From Aegilops tauschii subsp. strangulata (taxonomy: Eukaryota; Streptophyta; Magnoliopsida; Poales; Poaceae): DNA of 64,000 bases. Location: NCBI RefSeq assembly GCF_002575655.3, contig NC_053041.3, positions 374,091,054-374,155,053 of the forward strand. Direction: 5' to 3'. Every line of letters starts with the position of its first letter. The first letter of the stretch is position 1. Below are positions 8,283 through 61,385 of this stretch, in pieces. Under the pieces are notes generated by a model. The model was given only the letters and a program-made list of their open reading frames with translations. It was not told the DNA's origin and made no database searches. The translations under genes were made by a program, and so were the position numbers.

Positions 8283-11200
8283 CCGACAAGGTCACCTCCA
8301 GAGTTAAGGAGGCCGCACCAGCATGGAAGAAGCAGTTGTTCACTCAAGATCGAGCAGGAACCAAGCAGGTGTCGGTCGAGGAAGATGGGTCCTCTGGAGC
8401 CACCTTCACCATAGGTGCCAACCTCGACCCAGATCAGGAGGAGGCATTGGTGAAGTTCTTGCACGCAAACAAGGAAGTATTCACATGGGAACCCAAACAG
8501 CTGGTAGGGGTCCCAAGAGGGGTGATCGAGCATCACTTGAGGGTGTGCCCCAATGTGCGCCCTATGAAGCAGAAAACGCGGTGACAGTCCATGGAGAAGC
8601 AGTCCTTCATCATCTAGGAAACCCGCAAGCTGGAGGAAGCAGGTGTCATTCGCGAGGTTCGGTACCCCGAGTGGCTGGCGAACCCCGTCGTCGTGCCGAA
8701 GAAATGTGGGAAGGAGCGCATGTGTGTCGACTTCACCAACCTCAACAAGGCCTGTCCCCAAGATCCGTTCCCACTTCTATGCATCGACCATATCGTTGAC
8801 TCCACCGCCGAGTGCGACTTGCTATGCTTCCTGGATGCGTTCTCAGGCTATCATCAGATCAAGATGGCGGTAGAGGATGTGGAGAAGACGGCCTTCCTAA
8901 CCCCGTGCGGGGTGTACTGCTACACTTGCATGCCGTTCAGGCTGTGCAACGCAGGCGCGACCTTCCAACGGATGATGCACATTGCCCTGGGTCAGCAGCT
9001 CGGGAGGAACGCTGAAGCCTGCGTCGACGACATTGTTGTAAAGTCTCGGGAGGCAAGAACTTTGATTCAGGACCTGGAGGAGACCTTCGCGAGCCTGCGC
9101 CAGGTGCACTTGCGGCTCATCCCGGGGAAGTGCGTGTTTAGTGTCCCTTCCGGCAAGCTGCTGGGCTTCCTCGTGTCCCACAGGGGGATCGAGGCCAAAC
9201 CGGAGAAGGTCAAGGCGATCGAAGACATGAGCCCACTGCAAACCCTCAAGGAGATGCATAAGCTTGCCGGCTGCGTGACTTCGCTAGGGCGCTTCATCTC
9301 CAAGATGGGAGAGCGCGCCCTACCATTCTTCAAGCTAATGAGGAAGAAGGGCCCATTCGAGTGGACCCCGGAGGCTGACCAAGCGTTTCAAGACCTCAAG
9401 AGATACCTGACCAACCCTCCGGTGATAGTGGCGCCCCGCCCTCTCGAGCCCCTGGTGCTCTACCTTGCCGCCACTCCTTACTCTGCCAGCACAGCTCTGG
9501 TGGCGGTTCGGGAAGAGCGCCAGGCCAAGGATACCTCGCACCGAGCCACGCCCCCAGCCGGGGCGATGCAAGACCCGGAGGGCACCGCAAGGGCTGCAGC
9601 AACGCCAACGGATGACCAGGCCCAGCAAGACAGCGTCCTTGGGCCTGTAGAGGCCCCAATGAGCGATCGGGCTCCGGGGGTTCCATCGCTTCCGGAGGTG
9701 CCTCAACCTCTGACGGACGTAGGACCCGTCGACGCGCCCGCCCACGTCGAGCACCCAGTGTATTTCGTCAGCACGGTACTGCGGGATGCAAGGGCACGGT
9801 ACACCATGCCTCAAAATCTCTTGCTCGCGCTCTTGGTGGCCTCGCGTAAGCTATGACACTACTTTCAAGGTCATCCAATCAAGGTCGTCTCGTCCTACCC
9901 GCTGGAGAGGGTACTCATGAGCTCCAACGCTGCTGGAAGGGTCGCTGAATGGAACATCGAGCTGTAGGCATTCCAGCTGGAGTTCAGCACAACCAGGGTC
10001 ATTAAGGGAGCTGCGCTCGCTGATTTTGTGGCAGAATGGACGGATGCCCCGGGGCTTGAAGCAGGCGAGGACCGATCCCTCTCGCCGGGAAGTGAAGCGC
10101 CCGGCGGCAGGGTTATGTATTTCTATGGTGCGTTTGCACGCCAGGGCGCGGGGGCTGGAGCGGTGCTCATCTCGCCCAATCAGGACAAGCTCTACTATAC
10201 CGTGCAGCTCTGCTTCCAGCAGGGCGAGAAGGTCTCCAAGAACATCGCGGAGTACGAAGGCCTCATAGCTGGCATTAAGGCTGCGGTGGCCCTAGGGGTG
10301 AAGCGCCTCACCATCAGGGGTGACTCGCAGCTCCTCGTCAAATTCTCCAATAAGGTATACGAGCCAAGGGACGAGCACCTGGGGGCATACCTCGCGGAGG
10401 TACGCAAAATGGAAAGGCAGTTCCTGGGTCTAGAATTGCAGCACGTGCCCCGTGGCACCAACAAGGAGGCCGACGACATCGCCAAAAGAGCATCCAAGCG
10501 ACTACCCCAAGAGCCTCGCGTCTTCGAGGAGCGGCTCTTCAAGCCGTCGGCAGCACCTCCGCTTTCGAGGCCGGCGCCGCCTCGAGAGGAGCTCCCCCAA
10601 CCACCTGCCCGGGGAGCCCCGGCCTACGGCCCAACCTCAGGAGCGCGCCTACTCTTAGCGCTCGAGCCTCAGGAGGGGTGCTGGACCAAGGAGTTCAAGG
10701 AATACCTGACGCAAGGGACGCTGCTGGAGAAAGAGGAGGACGCAGAGCGCGTGGCCCGACAGGCCACGGCGTACTGCATTCAGGACGGTGAGTTATACAG
10801 AAAGCGGCCGAACGACGTTTCCTTGCGTTGTATCTCTAGGGAACAGGGGAACGAGCTGCTAGCTGACATACACGGCGGAGACTGCGGACACCACTCGTTG
10901 TCACGAACCCTCGTCGGCAAGGCATTCTGCAGCGGGTTCTACTAGCCTACGTCGCTCAACGACGCGACTGAGCTGGTGAAGTCCTGCGAGGCCTGTCAAT
11001 TCCACGCCAAGCAGATCCATCAGCCAGCTCAGGGCCTCCAAACCACCCGCTCTCGTGGCCATTTGCAGTCTGGGGGCTTGATATCTTAGGCACATTCCCT
11101 CGAGCGCCTGGGGGCTACCGCTACCTCTACGTCGCCATCGACAAGTTCACCAAATGGGCGGAGGTAGAAGCTGTCCGCACCATCCCGTCCAGATCTGCGA

Positions 11201-11925
11201 TCAAGTTCATCAAGGGTCTCGTGAGCCGGTTCGGGGTCCCTAATCGCATCATCAGCGACAACGGCTCGCAGTTCACTAGCAATCTCTTCAAAACATATTG
11301 TGCTAACCTTGGAACGCATATCTGCTATGCTTCGGTGGCACACCCTAGGAGCAATGGTCAGGCCGAACGCACCAACGCGGAGGTCCTGAGAGGCCTCAAG
11401 ACCAGGACCTTCAAGAAGAAGCTCGAGGCCTGCGGCAGGGGCTGGCACTATGAGCTCCAGTCTGTGTTGTGGTCCATCCGCACCACCGCCACCAAGCCAA
11501 CAGGCGAGACCCCGTTCTTCCTCGTCTATGGAGCAGAAGCGGTTCTCCCTCACGAGGTCAACCATCGCTCTGCACGGGTCCTGGCATTTGATGAGGCGCA
11601 ACAGGATGCCATGCAGGGGATAGACCTCGTGTTGGGGGAGGAACGCCACCGCGAAGCCACGCTTCGGGCGGCAAGATACCAGCAGGCGCTGCGACGGTAT
11701 CACTGTCGCAGCGTCCGCTCCAGGACGCTCGAGGTGGGTGACCTCGTCCTAAGGCGGGTGCTCTCCAGGGAAGGGCTGCATAAGCTTTCACCCATGTGGG
11801 AGGGCCTGTTTAGGGTCGCCCATTTCTCCAGGCCTGGCGCCGTGCGCCTGGAGACGCAGGACGGGTCCCCATCCAGAACGCCTGGAACATCCAGCACCTT
11901 CGAAAGTTCTACCCATGAAGCAAGG
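8283..11925 (+). pseudogene. Family B1 polyprotein: RT, two RNase H domains, integrase (broken)
   Basis: One frame runs from 8283 to 10945, interrupted by stops at 8582 (TGA), 8615 (TAG), 9854 (TGA), 9965 (TAG) and 10943 (TAG). Order: a pre-RT linker; RT with DFTNLNKACPQDPFP, FLDAFSGYHQIKM and the catalytic loop written CVDDIVVKSR (Cys where most relatives have Tyr); native RNase H (VLYLAATPYSASTALVAV, PVYFVSTVL), split by a Pro/Ala-rich insert; second, archaeal-type RNase H (NIAEYEGLIAGIKAAVALG, RGDSQLLVKFSNKV); a zinc finger (CEACQFHAKQ); then, after a frameshift near 11050, integrase with DKFTKWAEVEAV, SDNGSQFTSN and PRSNGQAERTNAE. A last shift near 11868 precedes the C-terminal LRKFYP. 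It copied and inserted the element; this copy is inactive. Confidence 0.88.
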
Positions 11926-12773
11926 CCCGGCGCCTGTGAAGCAAGGCCCAGTGCCTGTGAAGGTCTCCGCTTGTGACACTCTCACGTAATAATGAGTGGG
12001 GCTGTACACGCCCGAGAGTGTCAGGAGTGCCACCCTCGGGCCTCGGGGGCTCCCTCCCACGTCCTAGTGGCAGCACATAGCTCCGCGCTGGTGAGAAGAC
12101 TAGACTAGGTGCCGGATGCGGCTTTTCATTTGCTTTCCGTAGTTGGCTTGCCCCTCTTTATTGAAAATTTGCTTTCTGGTGTTCCTTGCCGGCTTGGTTC
12201 CATCGCTTTTTGCCTCCGTTTCTGCCCTCGGTTCCTTGTTTTGACCGGTACTCTCCCTCGCATGCCTCGCGAGGGGGCTGCACAGGTGCCCTCGCGAGCG
12301 TTTTTCCTGTTCTTCGCGAGGCACCCTCGCTCGATCTCACAAGCTGGCGCACCTCTCTCAATCCGTGCCCCTCGGGTACCGCGATGCGAAGCGCTGGGTT
12401 GTGGCCGGCTGCGCCTGCGACCAGGGCTCGGAAGAATAAGAGTTTCCTAACGAATTTTTGCATTTCCTAGACGCCTCCCAAGCCAAGGAGGCCTTGCCAG
12501 GTACTGGGAAATGCGCGCCTCACGAGGCAGAAACTACTTCGAGCGCGTCAAGCTAAGTTATTTCTACGCGCCTACATAAAATGCCGATGCTGCAACACGA
12601 CACAGGAATGATAAACATAGCATAGCAACTTGGAAATCATGGTTCATTGCACGCCCCTCCGGGGCCCCATACTTGTCTCTCTCTTAATGCAGGGAGAAAA
12701 GGATGAACGAAACAAAAGTGGCGCGTGCCCTCGCAGCAGTTCGCGAGGATGGTGCCATGGCGCTCTCCTGGGC
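11926..12773. other. Family B1 noncoding spacer between integrase and antisense ORF
   Basis: No coding potential is convincing here. It starts with two short imperfect repeats of GAAGCAAGGCCC and a segment (GTGACACTCTCACGTAATAA) shared with B2 and B3. It contains several copies of the palindrome CCTCGCGAGG or near variants (12265-12274, 12290-12299, 12313-12322, 12514-12523). Confidence 0.7.
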
Positions 12774-13556: not shown

Positions 13557-13640
13557 GGGTGTCGCTACTAGCAATGAAGCAAGGGAGTAGAAGCGAGCGG
13601 AGCAGGAAGAGATGAGTGACGGGGGCTCCGCCCCCTCCTC

Positions 13641-13647
13641 ATTTATA
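13641..13647 (-). promoter_or_regulatory. TATA box of the antisense ORF in B1
   Basis: The complement reads GCTATAAATGAGGAGG, followed by GGGGGCGGAGCCCCCGTC and CATCTCTTCC and then the ATG at 13556. The same arrangement is found in copy B3 (57145-57230). Conservation of TATA and leader in two copies suggests a working promoter for the antisense gene. Confidence 0.7.
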
Positions 13648-13890
13648 GCGGCAGAAGGCCAACCGGCGATCCCCACGATCACAGGTAATGATGATTTTTC
13701 TCTGCATGCAGCAGGGACTTGTCAAGTCGGACAGTTTCCGAGGCAGCATGGGAAAGTGGAGACGCCCACGTCCCATCAATCGCCACGCGTCAACCGAGGC
13801 TGCAGGCTCTTGGGGCCCGCGGCGCTCCGCACTTGCCCCTTGGCTTCACCTCGAAGCCAAGTCCGAGCGTGCCTTGGGCCCGGGGGCTAC

Positions 13891-14787
13891 TGTCGGCGTC
13901 TTGGGAACGGGGGTCCCCAGACTTGCCTGCTTGCGGCCCACGGCGCGGCTCCACCAAGTGCCCCGTACGGCCCATCTTCACCAGCAAACACTCAAGACCC
14001 TCGCGAGGGGCCGAGCCTCACGAGGTGGACGACACAAGACCTCCCTGGGGGCGCCCTCACCAGGCTGGCTCATGAGGGCCGGAGAGATCAAGGCAAGGGG
14101 CACCTCGCGAGGTTCCTGTGACGCAAGCCATGACGACCGGGGCCAGGCGGGCACAAGCGTGCGCAGTGTCCTCGTTTCCTCGTTGGTACTAAAGAGGCAA
14201 GCGCAGGCGAGGAGTCCCGAGGCATCAGACAAAGGTTTCCTTATCAGTGCAACGAGACCAAGACCAGCAGGAAGGCAGGACAGAGGTTACCGTGGAGCCC
14301 AAGACGGCGTCACCACCAGAGCCTTTGGCAGGCGAAGACCACCTTTAGTCAGGATAACTTGTACTTGTTGTCTCCCTTCAAATTTGGCCGTTGTGGCATC
14401 CCTTCCCGCCAGCATCTGGGAAGAGGACCTGGGCCCCTATAAATAGGGCTAGCCACCACAGTGGGAGGTGACTGGTCCGAGGCCATTCAGATCACCCTCA
14501 TTCAAACAAACTCACCAAGCACAAGAGCACCTCTCCTCAGGAGGCTGTTCTTTCCTTGTAACTGTTCCTCCTCAGCCAAAGAGGCAATCCACCACACCAC
14601 ACTGGAGTAGGGTATTACACCACATTGGTGGCCCGAAGCAGTATAAGTCTTGTGTCCCTTCGTTCTGCGATTTCGACGCGCTGAGCCTTGAGATCGCGGT
14701 GAGGGAGAGTGCTAGGGGGAGGAGAGATCTTCGTGTGCACCCAAGTGTTCGAACCTCAAGGGTTTTGCCAGAACCCAAAATCCGACA
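13891..14787 (+). repeat. 3' LTR of family B1
   Basis: It runs from TGTCGGCGTCTTGGGAACGG to AAAATCCGACA, 897 bases; ends TGTCGG/CCGACA are inverted repeats. The polypurine tract precedes it. TATAAATA lies at 14438-14445. CCTCGCGAGG palindromes occur at 13999-14008 and 14103-14112, with a variant near 14016. The same LTR bounds copies B2 and B3. Confidence 0.9.
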
Positions 14788-41925: not shown

Positions 41926-44900
41926 TGTCGGGACCCCGATTCTAAGTCACACCGATCTAGCATGTAACACCTCATATCACTTTGCGGCCTCACGCACGGT
42001 ATTCCCACGGGTGTCACCTTACCATGGCCCGGGACCGTTTGCGCCTTAGGCTCACGTATATGATAGTGTCGCTAGCATCCATATGACAGAGAACCCGGGG
42101 CGACATGACTAGTCATGAACCCAAAGTGGCACTAACTTACGGGGACAGGCATACATGAAACAACATCGAGCATGTCGGTCAGCAGCGTGTGAATCCGGGC
42201 TGTAGCAACTGGGCTAACAGGACTCCGGGAACCCGGGCTGTAGCAGACTACCATGGCTCGGTGGAAGCACTAGACTACATTTCCCCATAAGAGAGGCTAC
42301 CAAGGATGGACAACTAGGTTGTCAGATCCCACACATAGCAATACACGTTAGACGTACGCATAACATGCAAGTATGTGCTGTACAACATGGCATCACAACA
42401 TAACGCAAACTCATATAGATATAAGGCCCAGAAGAGCCACAAAGCATTAAGTACAAACAGGGGTCACATGACCCATCATTCAGAGCATACAAGCAACGGA
42501 AGCATTACATGTCTGAGTACAGACAACTACAAAAGAAAAGGGCGAGAAGCCTGACTATCTACAAGCCCCTCCCAAGGGTACAAGATCATAGCTGAGGTAC
42601 AAGCTACTCGTCGAAGTCCAAGCGAAACTACTAATAAGACTGAAGTCTCCGCTGCAAAAACATAAATAAAGAAACATGAGTACAAAGGTACTCAGCAAGA
42701 CTTACATCAGATCCTATCATACATGCATTTGTATCAAGAAGGTAGTGTGGGGTTTAGTTGCAGCAAGCCAGCTTTGACTCAGTGGCTATCCTGTTCTACG
42801 ACTACGAGAAACTTCTTTGAGGTAAGAAGGCACACACGAGTCCACTAATCACCACCTCAATACACCACTATGGATTCATTCCCGTCTCACTACGAGAAGC
42901 CATCCATAGCACTCACACTTATCTTGAGCATTTTAGGGTATCCACTTCAAGTTGTCTATGTACCACGTAAGCATCCAAGAAGTCCATAACCGAGGACACG
43001 GCTATTCAAATAGACCATGATAACCCTGCAGGGGTGTACTGCTTCACACACGCTCTCGCCACTTACCGCCATGTACACGTCATGTACCTCGGCAACCTTC
43101 AAGCGGAATCCTGGCGAGGTGTCGGCCACGACCTGACTAACCACACAAGACTCTAGTCCAGGTTTATCGCCTATTCGGGTTCCATCCGCAAGGAGATCCA
43201 GCCGGGGTGTCGCTCACGGCCCCAAACGATGTGTGCAGGGTTCCCGAGCCCACCATCCGGGTGCCACTCGGTACACCGGGCCACGTGTGCCTAGTCTGTC
43301 CCAAGCCCACCCTGCCGGGTGCCACTCGGTAGAAAAATAGCACTACCTACAAACACCAGAAACTAGTTGCAACTCCTGGACAGAGATCAAGTTGGTTAAT
43401 AAGTCGAGAGGGGTCGAGTTACCGGAACCCAATGTGTGGTAGTAGCTAGTCATTGGACAACATACACAGAACTCAATGCTTAAAGACGGTTCCAGTGAGA
43501 CAACCCACCATGTACTCCTACATGGCCTCTCACCGCTACCTTTACCAAATCGTGTTCACTCACTTAACTCTCAGGACCAGAACATATCGTAACACTCCAA
43601 TTCATTCCCTATGAATCAGACCTGACACAACTCTAAGCAATAGCAGGCAAGGCATGGTAGGAACACAACATGGCTCAAACAACTCCTACACATGCTAGTG
43701 GGTTTCAACTATTTACTGTGGCAATGACAGGTCATGCAGAGGAATGGGTTCAACTACCGCAGCATAAAGTAGCAGTTGAATTGTTGTTGTCCTAATGCAG
43801 TAAAAGAGAGCAGGAGCGAGAGAGTAGGATTGTATCGGAATGAACAAAGGGGGTTTGCTTGCCTGGTAGATCAACAGGGTGGCACTGCTCCTCAGACAGG
43901 TACTCTGGAACACTCTCCGGAGCAGGACCTATCGAGAAGGAACGGTTTCGACAATCAAAACACAATCATATGCAACAATATGATGCGTGAATATGGCATG
44001 AATATGTGATGTGTTTTGAGCCAATGCATTTAGCATTCAACTTGGAAGAGATCCATTTGAACCAAAGGTTCAAATGCAACTCTAATATAAGTCCCTTTAA
44101 ATGCCATAAGTGTGTTTTCATATATACAGCATGTATAGGTTCGTTTGTCATGCATGAAAATGGCACAGATGGATAGGTTGAATTTTCCTGATCATTTTTC
44201 ATATATAAATTATTTAAATCTGAGCTACGGTTGAATTTCTATGAATTTTTGAAGTTTATATCATTTTCTAGAATTTCCTGATTTAATTTAAATCCAGAAA
44301 ATGAATAACCGCGTCAGCACTGCATCATGCTTTCGTCACCAAGTCAACAGCGCTGACTGGGGTCAAACCTGACGTGTGGGGTCCACACATCAGTGTCACA
44401 GGTTAAACAGGGGGTTTAACTTATCCTAAATACAGGGTTAGTGGCGCTGGGGCCCACTGGTCAGTGTCAGGGGCTTAGGTTAGGTGGTGATTAGCACTGA
44501 GCTAATTACCTGACCAACGGGGCCCACTGTCAGACCGGCGAGGTCGTCGTCGGCGACCTCAGGACGCGGCGGCGTCCGCGTTACAGGCCACGGGGGCGGC
44601 GGCTAAGGGCACCGGGGCGTAGCCCGAGCTCTTGCGCATCTAGTGGGGCAGGAAGGAGGAGGAGGGGTGGCCGGAGCTCGCCGGAGCGGAGCTCGCGGCG
44701 GCGGCCGGAGCTCGGGCTCGAGCGGCTGCAGGGGGGCTACAGAGCACGGGGAAGCAGAAGAGAAGGGCGAACCGATGCAGGGGCTCACGGCGGATTCGGG
44801 GGCGTCGTCGGAGAGCTCGGCCAAGGGCTGGTGTGGCCGGAGGGTCGCCGTCGATCTCGGGCGGCCGGAGAGGAAGACGACGCCGCCGAGGACGAAGCGG

Positions 44901-45742
44901 AGCTCGCCCGGGTTGCTTGGCTCGGTGAGGAGGGAGAGGGGGTCGCGGCGGAGCTGTGGACCGTGTCGGGGAGGTGCGGCAGTGGCCGAGGCCACGGTGG
45001 CTGTGGACGGCGGCGACGGGCGCGTTCGGCCGCGAGAGAGAGAGAGCGAAGGGGAAGAGGGAATGGGCACGGGGGAGAGCGAGAGAGGTGCGGGGCGGCG
45101 CGTGGCGTCGCGCGGGTGTTCCAGGCGACGAGGGGGAGAAGCAGGAGGTGGCCGGACGCGTGGCCGCGCGCACCGAGCGCGTGCCCCTGTCTTCCTGGCG
45201 CGAGGAAGGGGACGACGGGCACGGCCAGCTAGCTGGGCCGGCCTGCTGGGCCGTTGGGCCAGGCCAGGCTGCACAGTGAGGTAAGTGCAGGTGGGTTTTC
45301 TTCCTTTCTTTCTATTTTTGTTTTCTGTAATTTGTTTTGATATAGTTTTAAACACTAAATCATTTTATTTACTTCTGTCAATTTTTGTAGGAACTAGTTG
45401 GATTGCTCCAAAACTCCTCACCAATTAACAGAATTTTTGGACATATATTATATATATAGCAAATATATATCCAAAGCAAATAATTATGCAATAATTCCAA
45501 ATGGCCAAAATAAATACTTATGAGCTCCTGAAAATATTGGTTTGACTTTTTATATCTGTCCAATATTTTCAGAGAGTAACATGAACATTTTCTTGGACCT
45601 TTTTGGAGCAATTTTTATCTGGGTCATTTCCAGAAATGATTTCTGAGGGTTTCACAAATTCCCATTTCAATTTTAAATTGAATTTAAACATGATGCTCAC
45701 AAGAAGGCTAGCCTAGGTCATACCAGAACTAGGGATGTGACA
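41926..45742 (-). repeat. 3' LTR of the chromovirus
   Basis: On the minus strand it runs from TGTCACATCCCTAGTTCTGG (45742) to CAGAATCGGGGTCCCGACA-type end (41926), 3817 bases; TGTC..GACA ends. The polypurine tract (complement of ACTCGCCCCCACTTGAA, 45743-45759) adjoins it. A strongly GC-rich block at 44560-45280 is open in several frames on both strands. Confidence 0.9.
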
Positions 45743-48700
45743 ACTCGCCCCCACTTGAAAGAATCTCGTCCCGAGATTCAGGGGTCGATGGAAAGAAGGT
45801 GGGGTACTCCAGTCGAAGACGATCTTCTCGCTCCCAAGTAGCTTCTCTCTCAGAATGATGAGACCACTGAACCTTGAGAAACTTGATGTTCTAACGTCGG
45901 GTGACACGCTCTGCTTGATCAAGAATGCGAATAGGGTACTCTCGATATGTGAGGTTATCTTGGAGATCAAGCGTTTCGTGGTCCACTCCGCGGATGGGAT
46001 CCGAGAAGCAACGCCTGAGTTGAGAGACGTGGAAGACATCATGGACTCGAGAAAGATGTGGGGGTAGTTCTAACTGGTAGGCAACCTCTCCTCGTTTAGC
46101 GAGAATGCGAAAAGGACCAATGTAACGAGGAGCCAACTTGCCCTTGATACCGAAGCGATGGGTACCCTTTAGAGGAGTAACCCGAAGGTAAGCCTTGTCG
46201 CCAACTTCATAAGCCACTTCCTTATGACGACAGTCATACTGGCTCTTTTGACGAGACTGGGCTGTTTTCAAATTCTCACGAATGATGCGAACTTGCTCTT
46301 CTGCTTCCTGGATCATGTCCGGTCCAAAGAATTGTCTTTCACCGGTTTCTGACCAGTTCAAAGGTGTTCGACATCTTCGTCCATACAAAATCTCGAAAGG
46401 AGCTTTCTTAAGACTGGATTGATAGCTATTGTTATAAGCAAACTCGGCGAAAGGCAGGCATTTCTCCCAATCCATACCGAATGAGATAACGCAAGCTCTA
46501 AGCATGTCTTCGAGAATTTGGTTGACCCTTTCCACCTGACCACTTGATTGCGGGTGGAAAGCGGTACTGAAGGAAAGATGGGTGCCCGTGGCAGTTTGGA
46601 AACTCTCCCAGAAATGAGAAGTGAAGAGACTACCACGGTCTGAATTGATCTCTAGTGGAACACCATGAAGTGACACTATTCGAGAAATATATAAGTCAGC
46701 GAGCTGACTAGCAGTGATACTCTCTCGAACAGGTAGGAAGTGAGCCACTTTGGAAAGAGGATCAATGACTACGAAGATAGCATTAGTCCCTTTCTTGGTC
46801 ATGGGAAAGCCGGTGATGAAGTCCATACCAACTTTATCCCATTTCCACTCAGGAATGGCTAAAGGTTGAAGGGTGCCAGCAGGCCTTTGATGCTCTGCCT
46901 TAACGCGACGACAAACGTCACAGTTAGCTATGAACTCAGCAATTTCTCTCTTCATCCTAGTCCACCAGAACCTCTGGCGTAGGTCCTGATACATCTTAGT
47001 ACTACCGGGATGAATCGTGAGAGGGGATTCATGTGCCTCCTTAACGATCAATTGTCGCGGATGTTGATTCTTGGGAACCACCAAGCGATTCTCAAAAAAA
47101 ACAGCACCTCGATCATCCATGGAGAAACATCCACCAACTCCCTTCTTAATGTTTCTCTTGATGCGGGTAACACCCCTATCAAACTTCTGGTCAGAAATGA
47201 TCTGATCCTCAAGGGTAGGTTTCGCCACCAAGGTAGAAAGGAATCCATGAGGAGCAATGTGAAGATTAAGCTTACAGAATTCCTCATGGAGAAGTGGTTG
47301 GCCCTGCTGCAACATAAGATTGTTGCAATAGGACTTACGACTTAGCGCATCAGCCATGACATTACCCTTGCCTGGGGTGTAGGTAATCCCTAAGTCGTAA
47401 TCTGAGATCAACTCCAACCAACGTCTTTGCCTAAGGTTCAAATCTGGTTGGGTGAAGATATACCTGAGACTCTGGTGATCGGTGTAAATCTCGCAACGTT
47501 TACCGAGAAGGTAATGTCGCCATGTCTTAAGTGCATAGACTACGGCTGCGAGCTCTAGATCATGTGTAGGATAATTCTCCTCATGTGGATGCAACTGTCG
47601 AGATGCATAGGCAATCACATGACGATCCTGCATAAGAATGCAGCCTAGTCCCTGTCGTGAGGCGTCGCAGTAGATAACAAAGTCTTTAGTGAAATCCGGT
47701 GGCACAAGTATGGGGGCAGAAGTCAGGCGTCTTTTCAGTTCCTGAAAACTGTATTCACACTGTGGGGACCACTCAAACTTTTTATCCTTCTTGAGAAGTT
47801 CCGTGAGGGGTTTGGCTACTTTGGAGAAGTTTTCAACGAAGCGGCGACAATAACTGGCTAGACCAAGGAAACTCCTAACTTGTTTAACTGTTTCAGGTGG
47901 AGTCCAATCAAGAACGGCCTGAACTCTCAGGATTGACAGCAATGCCCTTACTAGAGATCACGTGGCCTAGGTAGGTCACTTCTGGCAACCAAAATTCGCA
48001 CTTGGAGAACTTGGCATAAAGGCGGTGCTCTCTGAGTTTTTCTAACACAAGTCTAAGATGTTCGGCATGCTCTTCCTCGTTCTTTGAGTAAATAAGGATA
48101 TCATCGAGGTAAACCACGACGAACTTATCTAAGTACTCCATGAAGATCGAGTTCATCAAGCGGGAGAATGTGGCTGGAGCATTGGTTAGACCGAAAGACA
48201 TGACGGTGTACTCGTACTAGCCATAACGAGTGACAAAAGCCGTCTTAGGAATGTTCCCGTTTCTAATCTTGATTTGATGGTAGCCTAACCTCAAATCCAT
48301 CTTGGAAAAGACTGAGGATCCAGCAAGCTGATCATACAGGTCATTGATCCTAGGGAGCGGATACTTGTTCTTTATCGTGACCAAATTAACGGGACGATAA
48401 TCTACAACCATCCGGTCCGTACCATCCTTCTTCTTGACGAAGAGGATGGGGCAAGCCCAGGGAGAAGAACTAGGACAGATGAAACCCTTTTGCAAGGACT
48501 CATCAAGTTGTTTCTTAAGCTCAGCTAGTTCTAAAGGTGCCATCTTGTAAGGTCTCCTAGAGATTGGGGCGGTTCCTGGGGTAAGATCTATGACAAACTC
48601 TACATCTCTGTCAGGTGGAATACCTGGCAATTCCTCTGGAAAGACATCCGGAAAGTCACGGACTACCGGGATATCTTCAAGGTCTGGAAGAGGACTGGCA

Positions 48701-50688: not shown

Positions 50689-50691
50689 AGC

Positions 50692-53600
50692 TGTCGGGAC
50701 CCCGATTCTAAGTCACACCGATCTAGCATGTAACACCTCATATCACTTTGCGGCCTCACGCACGGTATTCCCACGGGTGTCGCCTTACCATGGCCCGGGA
50801 CCGTTTGCGCCTTTTGGCTCATGTATATGATAGTGTCGCTAGCATCCATATGACAGAGAACCCGGGCCGACATGACTAGTCGTGAACCCAAAGTGGCACT
50901 AACTTACGGGGACAGGCATACATGAAACAACATCGAGCATGTCGGTCAGTAGCGTGTGAATCCGGGCTGTAGCAACTGGGCTAACAGGACTCCGGGAACC
51001 CGGGCTGTAGCAGACTACCATGGCTCGGTGGAAGCACTAGACTACATTTCCCCATAAGAGAGGCTACCAAGGATGGACAACTAGGTTGTCGGATCCCACA
51101 CATAGCAATACACGTTAGACGTACGCATAACATGCAAGTATGTGCTGTACAACATGGCATCACAACATAACGCAAACTCATATAGATATAAGGCCCAGAA
51201 GAGCCACAAAGCATTAAGTACAAACAGGGGTCACATGACCCATCATTCAGAGCATACAAGCAACGGAAGCATTACATGTCTGAGTACAGACAACTACAAA
51301 AGAAAAGGGCGAGAAGCCTGACTATCTACAAGCCCCTCCCAAGGGTACAAGATCGTAGCTGAGGTACAAGCTACTCGTCGAAGTCCAAGCGGAACTACTA
51401 ATAAGACTGAAGTCTCCGCTGCAAAAACATAAATAAAGCAACATGAGTACAAAGGTACTCAGCAAGACTTACATCAGATCCTATCATACATGCATTTGTA
51501 TCAAGAAGGTAGTGTGGGGTTTAGTTGTAGCAAGCCAGCTTTGACTCAGTGGCTATCCTGTTCTACGACTACGAGAAACTTCTTTGAGGTAAGAAGGCAC
51601 ACACGAGTCCACTAATCACCACCTCAATACACCACTATGGATTCATTCCCGTCTCACTACGAGAAGCCATCCATAGCACTCACACTTATCTTGAGCATTT
51701 TAGGGTATCCACTTCAAGTTGTCTATGTACCACGGAAGCATCCAAGAAGTCCATAACCGAGGACACGGCTATTCAAATAGACCATGATAACCCTGCAGGG
51801 GTGTACTGCTTCACACACGCTCTCGCCACTTACCGCCATGTACACGTCATGTACCTCGGCAACCTTCAAGCGGAATCCTGGCGAGGGTGTCGGCCACGAC
51901 CTGACTAACCACACAAGACTCTAGTCCAGGTTTATCGCCTATTCGGGTTCCATCCGCAAGGAGATCCAGCCGGGGTGTCGCTCACGGCCCCAAACGATGT
52001 GTGCAGGGTTCCCGAGCCCACCATCCGGGTGCCACTCGGTACATCGGGCCACGTGTGCCTAGTCTGTCCCAAGCCCACCCTGCCGGGTGCCACTCGGTAG
52101 AAAAATAGCACTACCTACAAACACCAGAAACTAGTTGCAACTCCTGGACAGAGATCAAGTTGGTTAATAAGTCGAGAGGGGTCGAGTTACCGGAACCCAA
52201 TGTGTGGTAGTAGCTAGTCATTGGACAACATACACAGAACTCAGTGCTTAAGGACGGTTCCAGTGAGACAACCCACCATGTACTCCTACATGGCCTCTCA
52301 CCGCTACCTTTACCAAATCGTGTTCACTCACTTAACTCTCAGCACCAGAACATATCATAACACTCCAATTCATTCCCTATGAATCAGACCTGACACAACT
52401 CTAAGCAGTAGCAGGCAAGGCATGGTAGGAACACAACATGGCTCAAACAACTCCTACACATGCTAGTGGGTTTCAACTATTTACTGTGGCAATGACAGGT
52501 CATGCAGAGGAATGGGTTCAACTACCGCAGCATAAAGTAGCAGTTGAATTGTTGTTGTCCTAATGCAGTAAAAGAGAGCAGGAGCGAGAGAGTAGGATTG
52601 TATCAGAATGAACAAAGTGGGTTTGCTTGCCTGGTAGATCAACGGGGTGGCACTGCTCCTCAGACAGGTACTCTGGAACACTCTCGGGAGCAGGACCTAT
52701 TGAGAAGGAACGGTGTCGACAATCAAAACACAATCATATGCAACAATATGATGCATGAATATGAATATGTGATGTGTTTTGAGCCAATGCATTGAGCATT
52801 CAACTTGGAAGAGATCCATTTGAACCAAAGGTTCAAATGCAACTCTAATATAAGTCCCTTTAAATGCCATAAGTGTGTTTTCATATATACAGCATGTATA
52901 GGTTCGTTTGTCATGCATGAAAATGGCACAGATGGATAGATTGAATTTTCCTGATCATTCTTCATATATAAATTATTTAAATCTGACCTACGGTTGAATT
53001 TCTATGAATTTTTGAAGTTTATATCATTTTCTGGAATTTCCTGATTTAATTTAAATCCAGAAAATGAATAACTGCGTCAGCACTGCGTCATGCTTGCGTC
53101 ACCAAGTCAACAGCGCTGACTGGGGTCAAACCTGACGTGTGGGGTCCACACATCAGTGTCACAGGTTAAACAGGGGGTTTAACTTATCCTAAATACAGGG
53201 TTAGTGGCGCTGGGGTCCACTGGTCAGTGTCAGGGGCTTAGGTTAGGTGGTGATTAGCACTGAGCTAATTACCTGACCGACGGGGCCCACTGTCAGACCG
53301 GCGAGGTCGTCGTCGGCGACCTCAGGACACGGCGGCGTCCGCGTTACAGGCCACGGGGGCGGTGGCTAAGGGCACCGGGGCGTAGCCCGGGCTCTTGCGC
53401 GTCTGGTGGGGCAGGAAGGAGGAGGAGCAGTGGCCGGAGCTCGCCGGAGCGGAGCTCGTGGCGGCGGCTGGAGCTCGGGCTCGAGCGGCTGCGGGGGGCT
53501 ACAGAGCACGGGGAAGCAGAAGAGAAGGGGGAACCGATGTAGGGGCTCACGGCGGATTCGGGGGCGTCGTCTGAGAGCTCGGCGAAGGGCTGGTGCGGCC

Positions 53601-54503
53601 GGAGGGTCGCCGTCGATCTCGGGCGGCCGGAGACGAAGACGACGACGCCGAGGATGAAGCGGAGCTCGCCCGGGTTGCTTGGCTCGGTGAGGAGGGAGAG
53701 GTGGTCGCGGCGGAGCTGTGGACCGTGTCGGGGAGGTGCGGCAGTGGCCGAGGCCACGGTGGCTGTGGACGGCGGCGACGGGCGCGTTCGGCCGCGAGAG
53801 AGAGAGCGAAGGGGAAGAGGGAATGGGCACGGGGGAGAGCGAGAGAGGTGCGGGGCGGCGCGTGGCGTCGCGCGGGTGTTCCAAGCGACGAGGGGGAGAA
53901 GCAGGAGGTGGCCGGACGCGTGGCCGCGCGCACCGAGCGCGTGCCCCTGTCCTCCTGGCGCGAGGAAGGGGACGACTGGCACGGCCAGCTGGCTGGGCCG
54001 GCCTGTTGGGCCATTGGGCCAGGCCAGGCTGCACAGTGAGGTAAGTGCAGGTGGGTTTTCTTCCTTTCTTTCTATTTTTTGTTTTCTGTAAGTTGTTTTG
54101 ATATAGTTTTAAACACTAAATCATTTTATTTACTTCTGTCAATTTTTGTAGGAACTAGTTGGATTGCTCCAAAACTCCTCACCAATTAACAGAATTTTTG
54201 GACATATATTATATATATAGCAAATATATATCCAAAGCAAATAATTATGCATTAATTCAAAATGGCCAAAATAAATATTTATGAGCTCCTGAAAATATTG
54301 GTTTGATTTTTTACATCTGTCCAATATTTTCAGAGAGTAACATGAACATTTTCTTGGACCTTTTTGGAGCAATTTTTATCTGGGTCATTTCCAGAAATGA
54401 TTTCTGAGGGTTTCACAAATCCCCATTTCAATTTTAAATTGAATTTAAACATGATGCTCACAAGAAGGCTAGCGTAGGTCATACCAGAACTAGGGATGTG
54501 ACA
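50692..54503 (-). repeat. 5' LTR of the chromovirus
   Basis: 3812 bases, from TGTCACATCCC (54503) to GGTCCCGACA (50692) on the minus strand. Nearly the same sequence as the 3' LTR including the GC-rich block (53330-54035). Small indels distinguish them, for example near 50815 and 51885. The noncoding leader between gag start and PBS (50239-50674) holds no other feature I can name. Confidence 0.9.
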
Positions 54504-56007
54504 GCTGGACCCAACGGTCGACGCTGCACTACGAGCGTTCCTGCGCGAGAACTGGGACATATTCGCCTGGCACCCTTCCGATATGCTAGGAATCCCAAGC
54601 AGGTTGGCCGAACACAGCCTCAATATACTGAAAGGATATAAGCCAGTCAAACAAACACTGCGGCGTTTTTCCGAACCCAAATGACAAGCTATGGGGGAGG
54701 AGCTAGCCAAGTTAATCGAGGCCGGATTCATCAGAGAAATAAAACACCTGGACTGGCTAGCAAACCTGGTGATGGTGCCAAAGAAGGATAAATCCTGGCG
54801 CATGTGCGTCGATTTCAAAGACCTCAACAAGGCCTACCCTAAGGATCCCTTCCCCCTCCCCCGCATCGATTAGATTATCGATTCTACCGCAGGACACGAC
54901 TCACTGTGTTTCCTCGACGCATACTCCGGATACCATCAAATCAAAATGAAGGAGTCCGATCAAGCCGCAACGGCATTCATTACCCCATACGGGCCTTTCT
55001 GCTTCAACACTATGCCCTTCGGGCTCAAAAACGCTGGGGCCACCTACCAGCACATGATTCAAACATGCCTGGAGAAACAAATCGGCCAGACAGTTGAAGC
55101 ATATGTGGATGACGTCGTCATCAAGACTAGGCATGTCGAGTCATTAATAGACGACCTGGGTCTCACATTTGACAACCTCCGTACATATGACATCAAGCTC
55201 AATCCGGAAAAGTGTGTTTTCGGCGTTCCCGCTGGAAAACTGCTAGGCTTCATCGTTTCCAATAGAGGAATTGAGGCAAATCTAGCCAAAATCCGAGCTT
55301 TGTCACATTTGGCTACACCAACAGACCTCAAACAGGTCCAAAAGCTAGCCGGATGCGTGGCAGCTCTAAGCCACTTTATCTCCAGACTAGGAGAAAAAGC
55401 ATTGCCACTTTATCTTCTTCTCCGACGCACTGATCGCTTCGAGCGGGCGGATGCAGCAACGGCTGGACTGGAAGAAATAAAGGCTCTTTTAGCGAGCAAC
55501 CCAATCATGGCCGCGCCGAGCGTCGGCAAGCCCATGTTATTAAACATCTCGGCAACACACCAGGTGTTGAGCGCGTTGCTTGTCGTTGAGCGAGAGGAGG
55601 ACGGACACAAATTCCCACTTCAGAAACCGGTATAATACGTCTCCACTGTCCTCACACCATGCAAATCCCGGTACCCTCATTACCAAAAGATAGCATATCC
55701 GGTCTTCATGGCATCCACGAAGCTACGACACTACTTCCAAGAGTGCTCAATCATGGTGGCTTCCGAAGTACCACTCAATGACATAATAAATAACCGCGAC
55801 ACTACGGGCCTGATTGCCAAGTGGGCCATTGAGCTCCTGCCATTCGACATAACGTACAAACCGCGGGGCGGCCATTAAATCCCAAGTATTGGCCGACTTC
55901 GTCACTGAATGGACAGAGGTTGAACTCCCTAAAGAGTACGGTCCATATTCCAACTGGGTCATGCACTTCGATGGATCTAAAATGCTGGCTGGCTAAGGAG
56001 CGGGCGT
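54504..56007 (+). pseudogene. Fatima A4 pol: RT, RNase H, start of second RNase H (broken)
   Basis: Continues the frame left at 41925. RT motifs VDFKDLNKAYPKDPFPLPRI, FLDAYSGYHQIKMKES, MPFGLKNAGATYQHM and YVDDVVIKTRH are readable, with a TAG at 54871. The native RNase H follows (MLLNISATHQVLSALLVVER, then a TAA at 55633, VSTVLTPCKSRYPHYQKIAY). A one-base insertion near 55862 shifts the frame into the linker, then NWVMHFDGSKMLAG begins the archaeal-type RNase H, with a stop near 55994. At 56007 the LTR of B3 cuts it. Confidence 0.88.
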
Positions 56008-56902
56008 TGTCGGATGTGGGGTTCCGGCAAAACCCTTAAGGTTCGAACTCTGGGGTGCGCGCGAAGTCTTTCCCTACTACCGATCCATGCCCTAGCTCAC
56101 TAAGATCTCGCGGACGAACTCGACGAACTCGCAACACAGAAAGACACGAGATTTATACTGGTTCGGGCCACCGTTGTGGTGTAATACCCTACTCCAGTGT
56201 GGTGGTGGTGGATTGCCTCTTGGGCTGATGATGAACAGTACAAGGGGAAGAACAACCTCCTGAGGTTGAGGTGTTCTTGTGCGCGGTGAACTGGTGGATC
56301 AGAACTCGGTCCCCCTACTGTCGTGGCTAGCTCTACTTATATAGGCCCTGGTCCTCTCCCCAAATATTGAGCGGGAAGGGAGCCAACAATGGCGGGCGAA
56401 TTTGAAAGGGGACAGCTAGTACAAGCTATCCTGACAAAGGTGGTCTTCGCCTGCTAAAGGCTCTGCTGGTGACGCCGTCTTGGAATCCATGATGACCTCC
56501 GTCCTGCCGTCCTTCTGGTCTTGGTCTCGTTGCACCGATATGGCAACCTTTGCCTGATGCCTCGGTACTCCTCACATGCTCTTGCCTCCTTACCACCAAA
56601 GAGGAAACAAGGACGCTGTGCGTGCTGACGCCCGCCTGGCGCCTGCCTGGTGCCGATCGTCATGGCTCACGTCATGAGAGGCTCGTGAGGTTTGCCCCGC
56701 CTTGATATCTCCGCTCCTCGTGAGCCTGCCTGGCTAGACCACTCCTGAGGAGGTCTTGCGTCGTCCGCCTCGCGAGGCTTGGCCCCTCGCGAGGGTCTTG
56801 AATGCTTTGTTGACGAAGATGGACCATACGGCCCGCTAACTTAGCCACGCCGCGGGCCGCAGGCAGGCAAGTCTGGGGACCCCCGTTCCCAGAACACTGA
56901 CA
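56008..56902 (-). repeat. 3' LTR of family B copy B3
   Basis: On the + strand it runs from TGTCGGATGTGGGGTTCCGG to CCCAGAACACTGACA, 895 bases. The complement of CTTATATA (56337-56344) is its TATA box. CCTCGCGAGG palindromes lie at 56768-56777 and 56785-56794. The complement of GTAGCCCCCAGGCCC (56903-56917) is the polypurine tract. Confidence 0.9.
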
Positions 56903-57144
56903 GTAGCCCCCAGGCCCAAGGTGCGCTCAGGCTTGGCTTCGCGGCGAAGCCAACGGTCAAGTACGAAGCGCCGCGGGCCCCCAAAGCCTGCGGCCTCGGT
57001 TGACGCGTAGCAGTTGATTGGACGTGGGCGTCTTCGCTTCCCCATGCTGCCTTGGCATCTGCACGACTTGACAAGTCCCTGCAACATGCAAGGAAAACCA
57101 TCATTACCTGCGATCGTGGGAGGCGTTGGTTGGCCTTCTTTTGC

Positions 57145-57151
57145 TATAAAT
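57145..57151 (+). promoter_or_regulatory. TATA box of the antisense ORF in B3
   Basis: GCTATAAATGGGGAG lies 85 bases before the ATG at 57230. It is followed by GGGCGGAGCCCCCGTCG, which can fold into a short GC hairpin, and CATCTCTTCC. The same elements in the same order precede the ORF in B1 (13647 to 13556). Confidence 0.72.
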
Positions 57152-57229
57152 GGGGAGAGGGCGGAGCCCCCGTCGCCCATCTCTTCCTTGCTTGTTTGCT
57201 TCTTCCTCCTTGCTCCACCGCCAGTTGCC

Positions 57230-58021
57230 ATGGCACCGTCGAAGAGGTTCTCTGCTGCGGAGAAGGGCAGGGCCCCTCGGGAGGGGCCCGGCTCCCCGGC
57301 GCCCAAGCGAGGACGTGGCCGTCCCCGCAAGCATGCCGCGACCCCCGCCGTGGCCCCCGGCTCCCGGGGCGGCGCCGCGATGCGTGGCAGGAGTCCCTCT
57401 GGTCGCGGCAGTTCTGTCGATGAAAGGAGGCGCGCCGTGGTTGCGCGACCCCCCCCCCCCCCCGACCGCGGTTCCATGCGTCAGAGGTGTTGCCGGAGTT
57501 TGTTGTCTGATCGGAGAATCCGGCCGGCAACTGGCTCCAGCTCCCTCAATTCTTCGCCGACGAGCTGCCGGCCTCCGGTCCCGGCGGGCTTTGGTTGCAG
57601 GCGGACGGTTGCTGCAGCCGGGCTTCTTGGGTCGCGGTCGAGGTCTGCGTCGCGAGCAACATAGCTCTGGCCCGCGGTTGGCAGACGTTTGCCCGCGCGC
57701 GCGGCCTTGGCAGGCGGTGCACCCTCCACTTAAAGTTCGACGGCGACGCGACCCTCTTCGTGAGGGTGTTCGGGGAAGACGGTCGTCGCGCCGGATGCTG
57801 CCCCGAGGTGAACGACGGTGAGCAGGTGCTCAGCCTTGGCGATGGTCGGGACAAGGAGAAGGACGAACCCGTCGGCCGCTCCTCGTTTGGCTATGGTGAC
57901 TCCTCCCTTGGCGACAGTTCTAGGAGCGGCGGCCTTGATCAGCCGCCGCGCCCGCTTCGAAGGTGGTAGCGGGTCGTCTCGTTGCCGCGCATCGGTGAAG
58001 CGCGAAGAGGGGTCCGACTAG
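57230..58021 (+). pseudogene. Antisense ORF of family B copy B3: AT-hook plus B3-like domain
   Basis: Starts MAPSKRFSAAEKGRAPREGP at 57230. A clear AT-hook motif, PKRGRGRPRKH, sits near residue 28; AT-hooks bind the minor groove of AT-rich DNA. After a frameshift at the C run 57450-57464 the B3-like domain follows: a TGA near 57511 where B1 has Trp, then SENPAGNWLQLPQFFADELP, GGLWLQADGCCSRASWVAVE, ALARGWQTFARARGLGRRCT and FDGDATLFVRVFGEDGRRAG. A second shift near 57950 precedes the basic tail ending VKREEGSD (stop at 58021). Overall length and order match B1, and the damage differs between copies, so the common ancestor was intact. Expected product: a small nuclear DNA-binding protein. No endonuclease or polymerase residues are visible. 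Confidence 0.75.
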
Positions 58022-58867: not shown

Positions 58868-60502
58868 TCATGGGTAGAACTTCCGGAGGTGCTGGATGTT
58901 CCAGGCGTTCTGGATGGGCATCCCGTCCTGCATCTCCAGGCGCGCTGCACCAGGCCTGGAGACATGGACGACCCTGAACGGGCCCTCCCACATGGGGGAA
59001 AGCTTGTGCAACCCTTCCCTGGAGAGGACCCGCCTCAGGATGAGGTCGCCCACCTCGAGTGTCCTGGAGCGGACGTTGCGGCAGTGGTATCGCCGCAGCG
59101 CTTGTTGGTACCTTGCCGCCCTCAATGCAGCTTCGCGACGGCGTTCCTCCCCCAGCACGAGATCCATCCCCCGCGTGGCGTCCTGCTGCGTTTCATCGAA
59201 CGCCAGGACCCGTGCGGAGCGATGCTTGACCTCATGAGGAAGGACTGCTTCAGCTCCGTAGACGAGGAAGAAAGGAGTCTCGCCCGTTGGCTTGGTGGCG
59301 GTGGTGCGGATGGACCACAGCACGGACTGGAGCTCGTCGTGCCAGCCCCTGCCGCAGGCCTCGAGCTTCTTCTTGAAGGTCCTGGTCTTGAGGCCCCTCA
59401 GGACCTCCGCGTTGGCGCGTTCGGCCTGACCATTGCTCCTGGGGTGCGCCACCGAAGCGTAGCAGATCTGCGTTCCAAGGTTAGCACAGTAGATTTTGAA
59501 GAAGTTACTAGTAAACTGCGAGCCGTTATCTGTGATGATGCGGTTGGGGACCCCGAAGCGGCTCACGAGGCCCTTGATGAACTTGACAGCAGAGCCGGCC
59601 GGGATGGTACGGACGGCTTCCACTTTCACCCACTTGGTGAACTTGTCGACGGCGACATAGAGATAGCGGTAGCCCCTGGCGCCCGAGGGAACCGGCCTAA
59701 GATGTCCAGCCCCCAGACCGCGAACGGCCACGTGAGCGGGATGGTCTGGAGGCCCTGAGCTGGCTGGTGAATTTTCTTGGCGTGGAATTGGCAAGCCTCG
59801 CAGGACTTCACCAGCTCGGCTGCGTCGTTGAGTGCCGTAGGCCAGTAGAATCCACTACGGAACACCTTGCCGATGAGGGTCCGTGACGACGAATGGTTCC
59901 CACAGTCCCCACCGTGTATGTCAACCAGCAACTCCCTTCCTTGATCACTGGAGATGCACCGCAGCGTGACATCGTTCGGTCGTTTCCTATACAACTCGTC
60001 GTCTTGGATACAGTATGCCGTGGCCTGCCGGGCCACACGCTCTGTGTCCTCTTCCTTCTCCGACAGCGTCCCTTGCATCAGGTACTCCTTGAATTCCATG
60101 GTCCAACATTCCTCTTGGGGCTCAAGCGCCAAGAGCAACCGAGCTCCTGAGGTCGGGCCACAGGCTGGGGCTCCCGTGGCTGGAGGCAGTGGGAGCTCCT
60201 CCCGAGGCTGAGTCGTGCTTGAAAGTGTTGGTGTAGCTGATGGCTTGAAGAGCCGCTCCTCAAAGACACCGGGCTCTTGCGGTTGCCGCTTGGATGCTCT
60301 CCTGGCGATGTCGTCGGCTTCCTTGTTGGTGCCTCAGGGCACGTGCTGCAGCTCCAGGTCCGAGAACTGCTTTTCCATCTTGCGCACCTCCGCGAGGTAT
60401 GCCTCCATATGCTCGTCCTTTGGCTCGTATACCTTGTTGGAGAAGTTGACGAGGAGTTGCGAGTCGCCTCTGACGCTAAGGCGCTTCACCCCTAGAGCTG
60501 CC
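58868..60502 (-). pseudogene. Family B copy B3 pol: second RNase H (end), zinc finger, integrase
   Basis: From right to left: RNase H remnant (VRGDSQLLVNFSNKVYEPKD) with a stop near 60336; linker; zinc finger (ELLVDIHGGDCGNHSSSRTL, CEACQFHAKKIHQP) in one frame up to about 59700; then after a frame change integrase, open to its natural end at 58868. The integrase shows DKFTKWVKVEAV, ITDNGSQFTSNFF and PRSNGQAERANAEV, the three acidic positions in place, then KLSPMWEGPFRVVHVSRPGA and the terminal WNIQHLRKFYP. It is the best-preserved family B integrase in the window. B2 cuts the RNase H at 60504. Confidence 0.88.
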
Positions 60503-60504
60503 GT

Positions 60505-61385
60505 TGTCGGCGTTCTGGGAACGGGGGTCCCCAGACTTGCCTGCCTGCGGCCCGCGGCGTGGCTAAGCTAGCAGGCCGTACGGCCCATCTTCAGCAACAA
60601 GGCAGCCAAGACCCTCGCGAGGGGCCAAGCCTTGCGAGGCAGGCGACGCAAGACCTCCTTAGGAGTGGCCTAGCCAGGCAGGCTCACGAGGAGCAGAGAT
60701 ATCAAGGCGGGACAAACCTCACGAGGCTCTCGTGACGTGAGCCATGACGACCGGCACCAGGCGGGCGCCAGCGCGCGCAGCGTCCTTGTTTCCTGTTTGG
60801 TGCTAAGGAGGCAAGCGCAGGCGAGGAGTATCGAGGCATCAGGCAAAGGTTGCCATATCGGTGCAACGAGACCAAGACCAGAAGGACGGCAGGTCGGAGG
60901 TCATTGTGGAGCCCAAGACAGCGTCACCACCAGAGCCTTTCGCAGGCGAAGACCACTTTTGTCAGGATAGCTTGTACTAGCTGTCCCCCTTCAAATTTGC
61001 CCGCCGTTGTTGGCTCCCTTCCCGCTCAATATTTGGGGAGAGGACCAGGGCCTATATAAGTAGAGCTAGCCACCACAGTAGAGGGGGGGTTGTCATCCAC
61101 CAGTTCACCGAGCACAAGAACACCTCAACCTCAGGAGGTTGTTCTTCCCCTTGTACTGTCCATCATTAGCCCAAGAGGTAATTCACCACCACCACACTGG
61201 AGTAGGGTATTACACCACAACGGTGGCCCGAACCAGTATAAATCTCGTGTCTTTCTATGTTGCGAGTTCGTCGAGTTCGTCCGCGAGATCTTAGTGAGCT
61301 AGGGCGTGGATCGGTAGGAGGGAAAGACTTCGCGCGCACCCCAGAGTTTGAACCTTAAGGGTTTGCCGGAACCCCACATCCGACA
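60505..61385 (+). repeat. 5' LTR of family B copy B2
   Basis: Runs from TGTCGGCGTTCTGGGAACGG to CCCCACATCCGACA, 881 bases. TATATAAG is at 61053-61060. CCTCGCGAGG at 60613-60622 with a variant near 60631. Preceding host bases: GCCGT. Confidence 0.9.

Follow-up and report, generated by a model that had tools for sequence, protein, structure and literature searches.

What is the role of a gene that a retrotransposon carries on the strand opposite to its own integrase? For the antisense genes of plant Tat elements the literature leaves this question open (PMC7264820, PMC11963269), and it is raised again by a stretch of 64,000 nucleotides from Aegilops tauschii subsp. strangulata (contig NC_053041.3, C7:374091054-374155053), the whole of which we call the window. 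A first-pass annotation, made from the letters of the window alone, had described two independent insertions of one Tat-lineage Ty3/gypsy family sharing an antisense open reading frame (ORF) that would encode an AT-hook and a B3-like DNA-binding domain.

Having followed up this description, we are highly confident that the domain is a homologue of the plant B3 domain and that the antisense frame evolved under purifying selection, taking these two points jointly. On balance we favour a fuller account, in which a Tat-type Ty3/gypsy family carries an accessory gene in antisense orientation between integrase and 3' long terminal repeat (LTR), with a core that came from a host REM-type B3 domain and a role that would be regulatory. 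Likely host origin, a predicted DNA-binding fold and selection together mean that the target of the antisense protein can be sought directly.

Copies and sequences compared

Two element copies in the window carry the ORF. We refer to them as copy B1 and copy B3, the latter being the label of an element copy and distinct from B3 the DNA-binding domain; they are 78% identical across 4.6 kb. In both, the ORF is opposite in direction to integrase and positioned between integrase and LTR, so the placement proposed at first pass was borne out by coordinates, LTRs and rve matches (Table 1).

Further copies were drawn from the 4.10 Gb genome by their non-coding LTR-proximal flank, rather than by the ORF, to keep the ORF itself out of copy choice. 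This selection comprises 78 copies: 39 with a B1-like flank (lineage F1) and 39 with a copy B3-like flank (lineage F2), in each case the 40 that were scored, out of 6,334 candidates for F1 and 4,579 for F2, less the window copy. Their flanks are 92–95% identical to those of the window copies, and inside the ORF a large group drops to ~50% DNA identity. This low-identity group encodes a second protein, which we call type II (33% identity over 222 residues between type II protein L091 and type I protein P0018); the window copies are type I. Lineage F1 holds 23 type I copies, 14 type II and two with neither, and lineage F2 holds 23, 15 and one. The three copies with neither version (L079, L083, L101) have the same LTR-proximal flank. 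The first-pass annotation had not foreseen two diverged gene versions in the family, one of them in elements with no pol beside it; a single uniform ORF across all copies is ruled out by their presence among the flank-selected copies.

Homology of the ORF core to plant B3 domains

Profile comparison bears on the origin of the ORF core. When the type I profile was compared using hhalign with a profile of host B3 genes (A3, built from 18 of 20 fetched host exons), it scored 75.1, with 40 shuffles reaching at most 18.4, as common descent with plant B3 genes would require; the type II profile scored 50.6 against host B3 domains, with a best shuffle of 20.6. One host B3 exon (L044, chosen by eye from the 20 fetched, which came out of 150 scored among 8,624 candidates) is 38% identical to the element protein over 79 amino acids. 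A fold search with a low-confidence model of the open piece of copy B3 returned B3 proteins as all of its top 11 matches, and the B3 pseudobarrel fold was found in predicted structures. In sequence searches, PDB chain 1yel matched the same piece at E 0.27.

Several results pull the other way. Pfam B3 (PF02362) has a curated cut-off of 30.1 bits and neither this nor the AT_hook cut-off was reached by any of the scanned ORF proteins: the best B3 score was 27.2 bits (P0024), the copy B3 piece scored 17.3 bits (E 0.0048) and both pieces of copy B1 lacked any Pfam match at all. None of nine type II proteins matched Pfam B3 on its own, and in PDB the type II profile matched a single unrelated chain (E 0.91) and nothing of B3 type. 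The AlphaFold2 (AF2) model of the copy B3 piece is weak (mean predicted local distance difference test score, pLDDT, 53.9), as are most of five models of P0049, the best reaching 64.9 and the remainder 43–52.

Because all scores fall under the PF02362 cut-off, we call the domain B3-like and not a Pfam B3 member; and because type II has no Pfam or PDB B3 match of its own, its B3 nature depends on the type I and host profiles. With the host-B3 comparison and the predicted folds in agreement, the identification of the ORF core as a divergent B3-like DNA-binding domain is supported, and on sequence evidence it probably derives from a host REM-type B3 gene. Thus the B3-like domain named at first pass stands on profile comparison and predicted fold, whereas in Pfam it shows below threshold in copy B3 and not at all in copy B1.

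The AT-hook fared less well, and its evidence, read from the sequences, is weaker than that for the B3-like domain. Pfam AT_hook (PF02178, cut-off 17.4 bits) matched copy B3 below threshold (15.6 bits, E 0.014) and did not match copy B1. The motif RGRGRPRKH had been credited to both window copies; it is intact in copy B3, but copy B1 reads RGRDRPCKH, a degenerate form. Among proteins that hold the N-terminus, the RGRP core is present in 20/26 of type I and 0/35 of type II, so that the AT-hook belongs to most type I proteins and is absent from type II.

A real gene once under purifying selection

The antisense ORF family is large: a first look at this genome gave 13,621 candidates, of which 150 were scored and all 150 matched; at the protein level 120 relatives were found at E ≤ 0.001 (among 6125 candidates), the one named relative (P0115) being from Aegilops tauschii. 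The ORF has the features of an antisense accessory gene (aORF-3R): it is antisense, lies between pol and 3' LTR, is present in most copies (75/78 of those flank-selected carry one version or the other) and is conserved like integrase. The start codon, whose conservation had been put forward as a check, is retained in 37/38 and 36/39 copies, one F1 copy having been dropped from this count for coverage.

Selection was assessed through the ratio of nonsynonymous to synonymous substitution rates (dN/dS), given as medians over up to 300 pairs, and through counts of nonsynonymous and synonymous changes (N/S) at singleton and shared sites, for which p-values take sites as independent and ignore relatedness. 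The three copies with neither version were dropped from these counts, and window copy B3 was excluded from the main analysis. An additional set (F3) comprised 40 type I copies down a list of 147 scored, picked by protein similarity and biased to conserved copies; the F1–F2 values are independent of it, but its copies do enter the type I singleton test.

For the antisense frame, comparing lineage F1 with F2 gave a dN/dS of 0.24 in type I and 0.29 in type II, well under 1 as the first-pass proposal of a once intact gene had required; over all comparisons it ranged over 0.21–0.53 and 0.29–0.45. Four control frames gave 0.90–1.77 (type I) and 0.92–1.27 (type II), and those four gave 1.2–1.6 in the type I comparison between lineages. 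In type I, N/S was 4.82 at singletons and 0.86 at shared sites (odds ratio, OR, 0.18; p 9e-33), and in type II 2.58 and 0.68 (OR 0.26; p 6e-12), with no contrast in that direction in the other frames (OR 1.10–1.91). An earlier test on F2 alone, which pooled both ORF versions, had found little or no such contrast and was replaced by the version-separated test. In a small set compared between lineages, dN/dS was 0.16 for integrase (16 pairs, window copy B3 included) and 0.21 for the antisense ORF (12 pairs, without that copy). Synonymous divergence (dS) between F1 and F2 was 0.76 in the antisense ORF, about twice the 0.39 of integrase (few copies), and was almost equal for type I (0.70) and type II (0.65).

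Two observations tell against the favoured account. Copies with at least 230 open codons from the ATG are few (8/46 type I and 4/29 type II among those flank-selected), and the sense frame that shares its wobble positions also has low dN/dS (0.27–0.60 in type I, 0.38–0.56 in type II) and the same contrast between singleton and shared sites, though weaker (OR 0.28 and 0.29). The second could arise if a sense-strand gene were the one selected and the antisense frame merely inherited its wobble pattern: of the six type I comparisons, five place that sense frame (-2) at 0.27–0.41 and one at 0.60; its OR is 0.28, and its dN/dS between lineages 0.35. We regard such a mirror artefact as very improbable, since the antisense frame is the lower of the two in 9/9 comparisons and in both singleton tests (0.18 and 0.26 vs 0.28 and 0.29) and since its product has homologues and a predicted fold.

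Passive transduction of a host gene fragment, functionless in the element, is just as improbable as the mirror artefact. Transduction of host sequence by LTR elements has been described (PMC7264820) and host B3 relatives are present; against it stand the abundance of copies, their spread over two lineages and two versions, and a dN/dS far under that of the four unrelated control frames. It is also improbable that antisense RNA is what matters, with double-stranded RNA controlling the element and the ORF a by-product: antisense transcription of such regions has been reported for both Grande and Retand, and control at the RNA level has been discussed (PMC7264820), but purifying selection acts at the amino-acid level in both versions and protein-level similarity persists where DNA identity is ~50%.

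The pattern of selection is as expected for a gene selected during element activity and decayed after insertion; strong purifying selection on the frame preceded insertion and affected both versions. Of the two window copies, copy B1 has a single in-frame stop at codon 142 and is otherwise one frame throughout, and copy B3 loses its frame within a C-run at ~57452–57464. That the disabling mutations differ had been seen correctly at first pass; the reported ORF at 57230–58021 proved homologous along its whole span and begins with an ATG, yet is not a single open frame. A chance ORF is ruled out by the protein relatives and by selection on the antisense frame.

Two versions behind one flank

In a tree of the LTR-proximal flank (77 rows), lineages F1 and F2 are apart with full support, and within each the ORF types are as intermixed as in shuffled data (23 changes, against a mean of 23.6 on shuffling). 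Inner branches are mostly poorly supported (61/74 open), and the mixing of types for that reason rests on distances more than on branching: flank distance is independent of ORF type, at 0.061–0.065 within a lineage and 0.152–0.156 between lineages.

Beyond the ORF, the two types differ in what adjoins them over the 0.6–2.5 kb viewed per copy, and "pol-less" here means that no pol match was found at that place. Type I copies adjoin integrase in 6/6 checked, whereas 7/8 type II copies checked have a protease-like frame and no match to reverse transcriptase (RT), RNase H or integrase; the eighth (L172) had no match beyond the ORF. The protease-like label was given by eye and is backed only by similarity to the presumed protease frame of another window element, and Pfam found no family in two of these neighbouring frames. 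Two copies (L167 and L168) show, by eye, a short RT-like remnant after the protease-like frame. The LTR-proximal flank is interchangeable between type I elements, beside pol, and type II elements, with no pol beside them.

Features of the window copies

Coordinates are collected in Table 1. In copy B1, matches follow in the order RT_RNaseH_2, RVT_3 and rve. The Tat clade is marked by an additional RNase H that sits between the native one and integrase (PMC6317226), and because RVT_3 sits at that place we assign copy B1 to the Tat clade of Ty3/gypsy, in agreement with the first-pass lineage. The distance from pol to LTR is ~1.9–2.0 kb in both window copies (11976 to 13891; 58868 to 56902).

Table 1. 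Features of the two window copies (positions within the window; strands relative to the window).
Feature	Copy	Position	Strand	Detail
Antisense type I B3-like ORF (broken)	B3	57230..58021	+	ATG 57230
Open second half carrying the B3-like domain	B3	57511-57969	+	piece with the domain 57511..57966; domain ~57530-57780
AT-hook-like KRGRGRPRKH	B3	57305..57334	+	
TATA-box-like GCTATAAATGGGGA, upstream of ORF	B3	57143..57156	+	-85 from ATG
LTR-proximal flank, lineage F2	B3	56903..57229	+	common to elements with either ORF version
3' LTR	B3	56008..56902	-	
Integrase frame	B3	58868..59854	-	rve E 6.5e-11
Antisense type I B3-like ORF	B1	ATG 13556 to stop 12774	-	260 codons
TATA-box-like GCTATAAATGAGGA, upstream of ORF	B1	13636..13649	-	-91 from ATG
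LTR-proximal flank, lineage F1	B1	13557..13890	-	common to elements with either ORF version
3' LTR	B1	13891..14787	+	
Integrase frame	B1	10972..11976	+	rve E 1.9e-14
RT, native RNase H and additional RNase H frames	B1	8618..10945	+	RVT_1, RT_RNaseH_2, RVT_3 (Tat-type dual RNase H)

Truncated copy B3 is flanked by two family LTRs, 56008–56902 (-) and 60505–61385 (+), which are 92% identical and point away from each other; a stretch resembling a primer binding site (PBS) follows the right-hand LTR, as judged by eye. These outward-facing LTRs may reflect an inverted rearrangement or the meeting of two elements. For copy B1 the window holds no 5' LTR to match, and the left end of this copy was not found (7770–8168). 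Elsewhere in the window, 41924–45754 and 50690–54515 are 97.9% identical over 3.8 kb, nearer than the other listed window repeats.

How the antisense protein might act

A regulatory mechanism is plausible, at a little under even confidence, and may be set out as follows. The TATA-like box 85–91 bases before the ATG would drive a separate antisense transcript, like the transcript of its own reported for maize Grande gene23 (PMC7264820). The box is retained in 92% and 87% of copies, although this conservation is only mildly over the flank background (rank 31/308 and 95/302 among 7-mers). The B3-like protein would then bind the common LTR or flank; such DNA binding, and a role in self-regulation or anti-silencing, we infer.

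Anti-silencing offers a functional analogy. VANDAL transposons are a different kind of element from the one described here. Their VANC proteins are element-encoded DNA-binding anti-silencing factors with diverged relatives, each specific to its own family (PMC5735166), and the B3-like protein might likewise keep its own family expressed; the likeness is in the proposed mode of working, and no protein homology is claimed.

Because type II, with no pol beside it, was nonetheless under selection, the product may work chiefly on its encoding copy, or contribute something of its own, and would then not be freely shared. A partner that keeps a selected version in this position constrains function, as a freely shared product would need no keeping there. 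More tentatively, and with appreciably less confidence than in regulation as such, we suggest that a pol-bearing element and a pol-less partner may hold LTR-proximal control DNA in common through recombination, each with its own diverged, selected, host-derived B3 protein. If true, one retrotransposon consortium would contain a regulatory or anti-silencing system made of two proteins and acting by preference in cis.

An unlikely alternative, though a more serious one than those weighed above, is that the protein tethers the element to DNA or chromatin, steering integration to chosen target sites, or brings the pre-integration complex into the nucleus, instead of acting on transcription or silencing. 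B3-like and AT-hook-like parts would suit chromatin binding, partners using one integrase could both benefit, and nuclear import has been raised for antisense proteins in a review (PMC7264820); type II elements, however, retain a different version despite having no integrase beside it.

Comparison with known systems

B3 domains have been mentioned before in LTR-retrotransposon consensuses of Aegilops tauschii, in that species only and, after the filter applied in that paper, in five or more consensuses (PMC9289625); these are probably the same family as ours. That account, in the portion available, is one sentence long and says nothing of orientation or selection, of an AT-hook or second version, or of a host source. 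PMC9744471 gave no passage on Fatima/antisense, and the literature searched by title and abstract opening, mostly outside subscription journals, held no account of a B3-like gene lying antisense in this place, of selection on it, of its AT-hook or of its occurrence in two versions. As far as that search extends, the orientation, the selection and the two-version arrangement are new; antisense accessory ORFs and the mention of B3 in A. tauschii were already known.

With host B3 proteins such as At1g16640 (1yel), VRN1 and L044, which we take to be REM type, the element protein has in common its predicted fold, in addition to the identity to L044 given above. Unlike them, it is encoded in one short frame; its N-terminus is basic, its tail is rich in Ser and Gly, and type I also has an AT-hook.

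The nearest known systems are the antisense ORFs (aORF-3R or eORF-3'R) of Tat/Retand elements, which mostly encode a TRP28 domain (PMC11963269, PMC7264820); maize Grande gene23, rice RIRE2, Silene Retand and the TRP28 (PF04195) proteins are members. TRP28 identity is ruled out for our protein, as PF04195 matched neither the scanned ORF proteins nor seven further frames between integrase and LTR (five on the minus strand of copy B1, two on the plus strand of copy B3), and the same profile does match at other places in this genome. A rough genome-wide count gave 47,895 first-look PF04195 candidates (150 scored), and TRP28-type proteins may outnumber the B3-like kind here. The element described here resembles the Tat/Retand systems in the place of its gene between pol and 3' LTR, its antisense direction, its many copies and the DNA-binding or regulatory role proposed there (PMC11963269, PMC7264820). 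It differs from them in a shorter distance from pol to LTR than the 2.9–6.6 kb of the Retand survey (PMC11963269), in a B3-like domain in place of PF04195, and in having two diverged versions of the gene, carried by elements with and without pol beside it.
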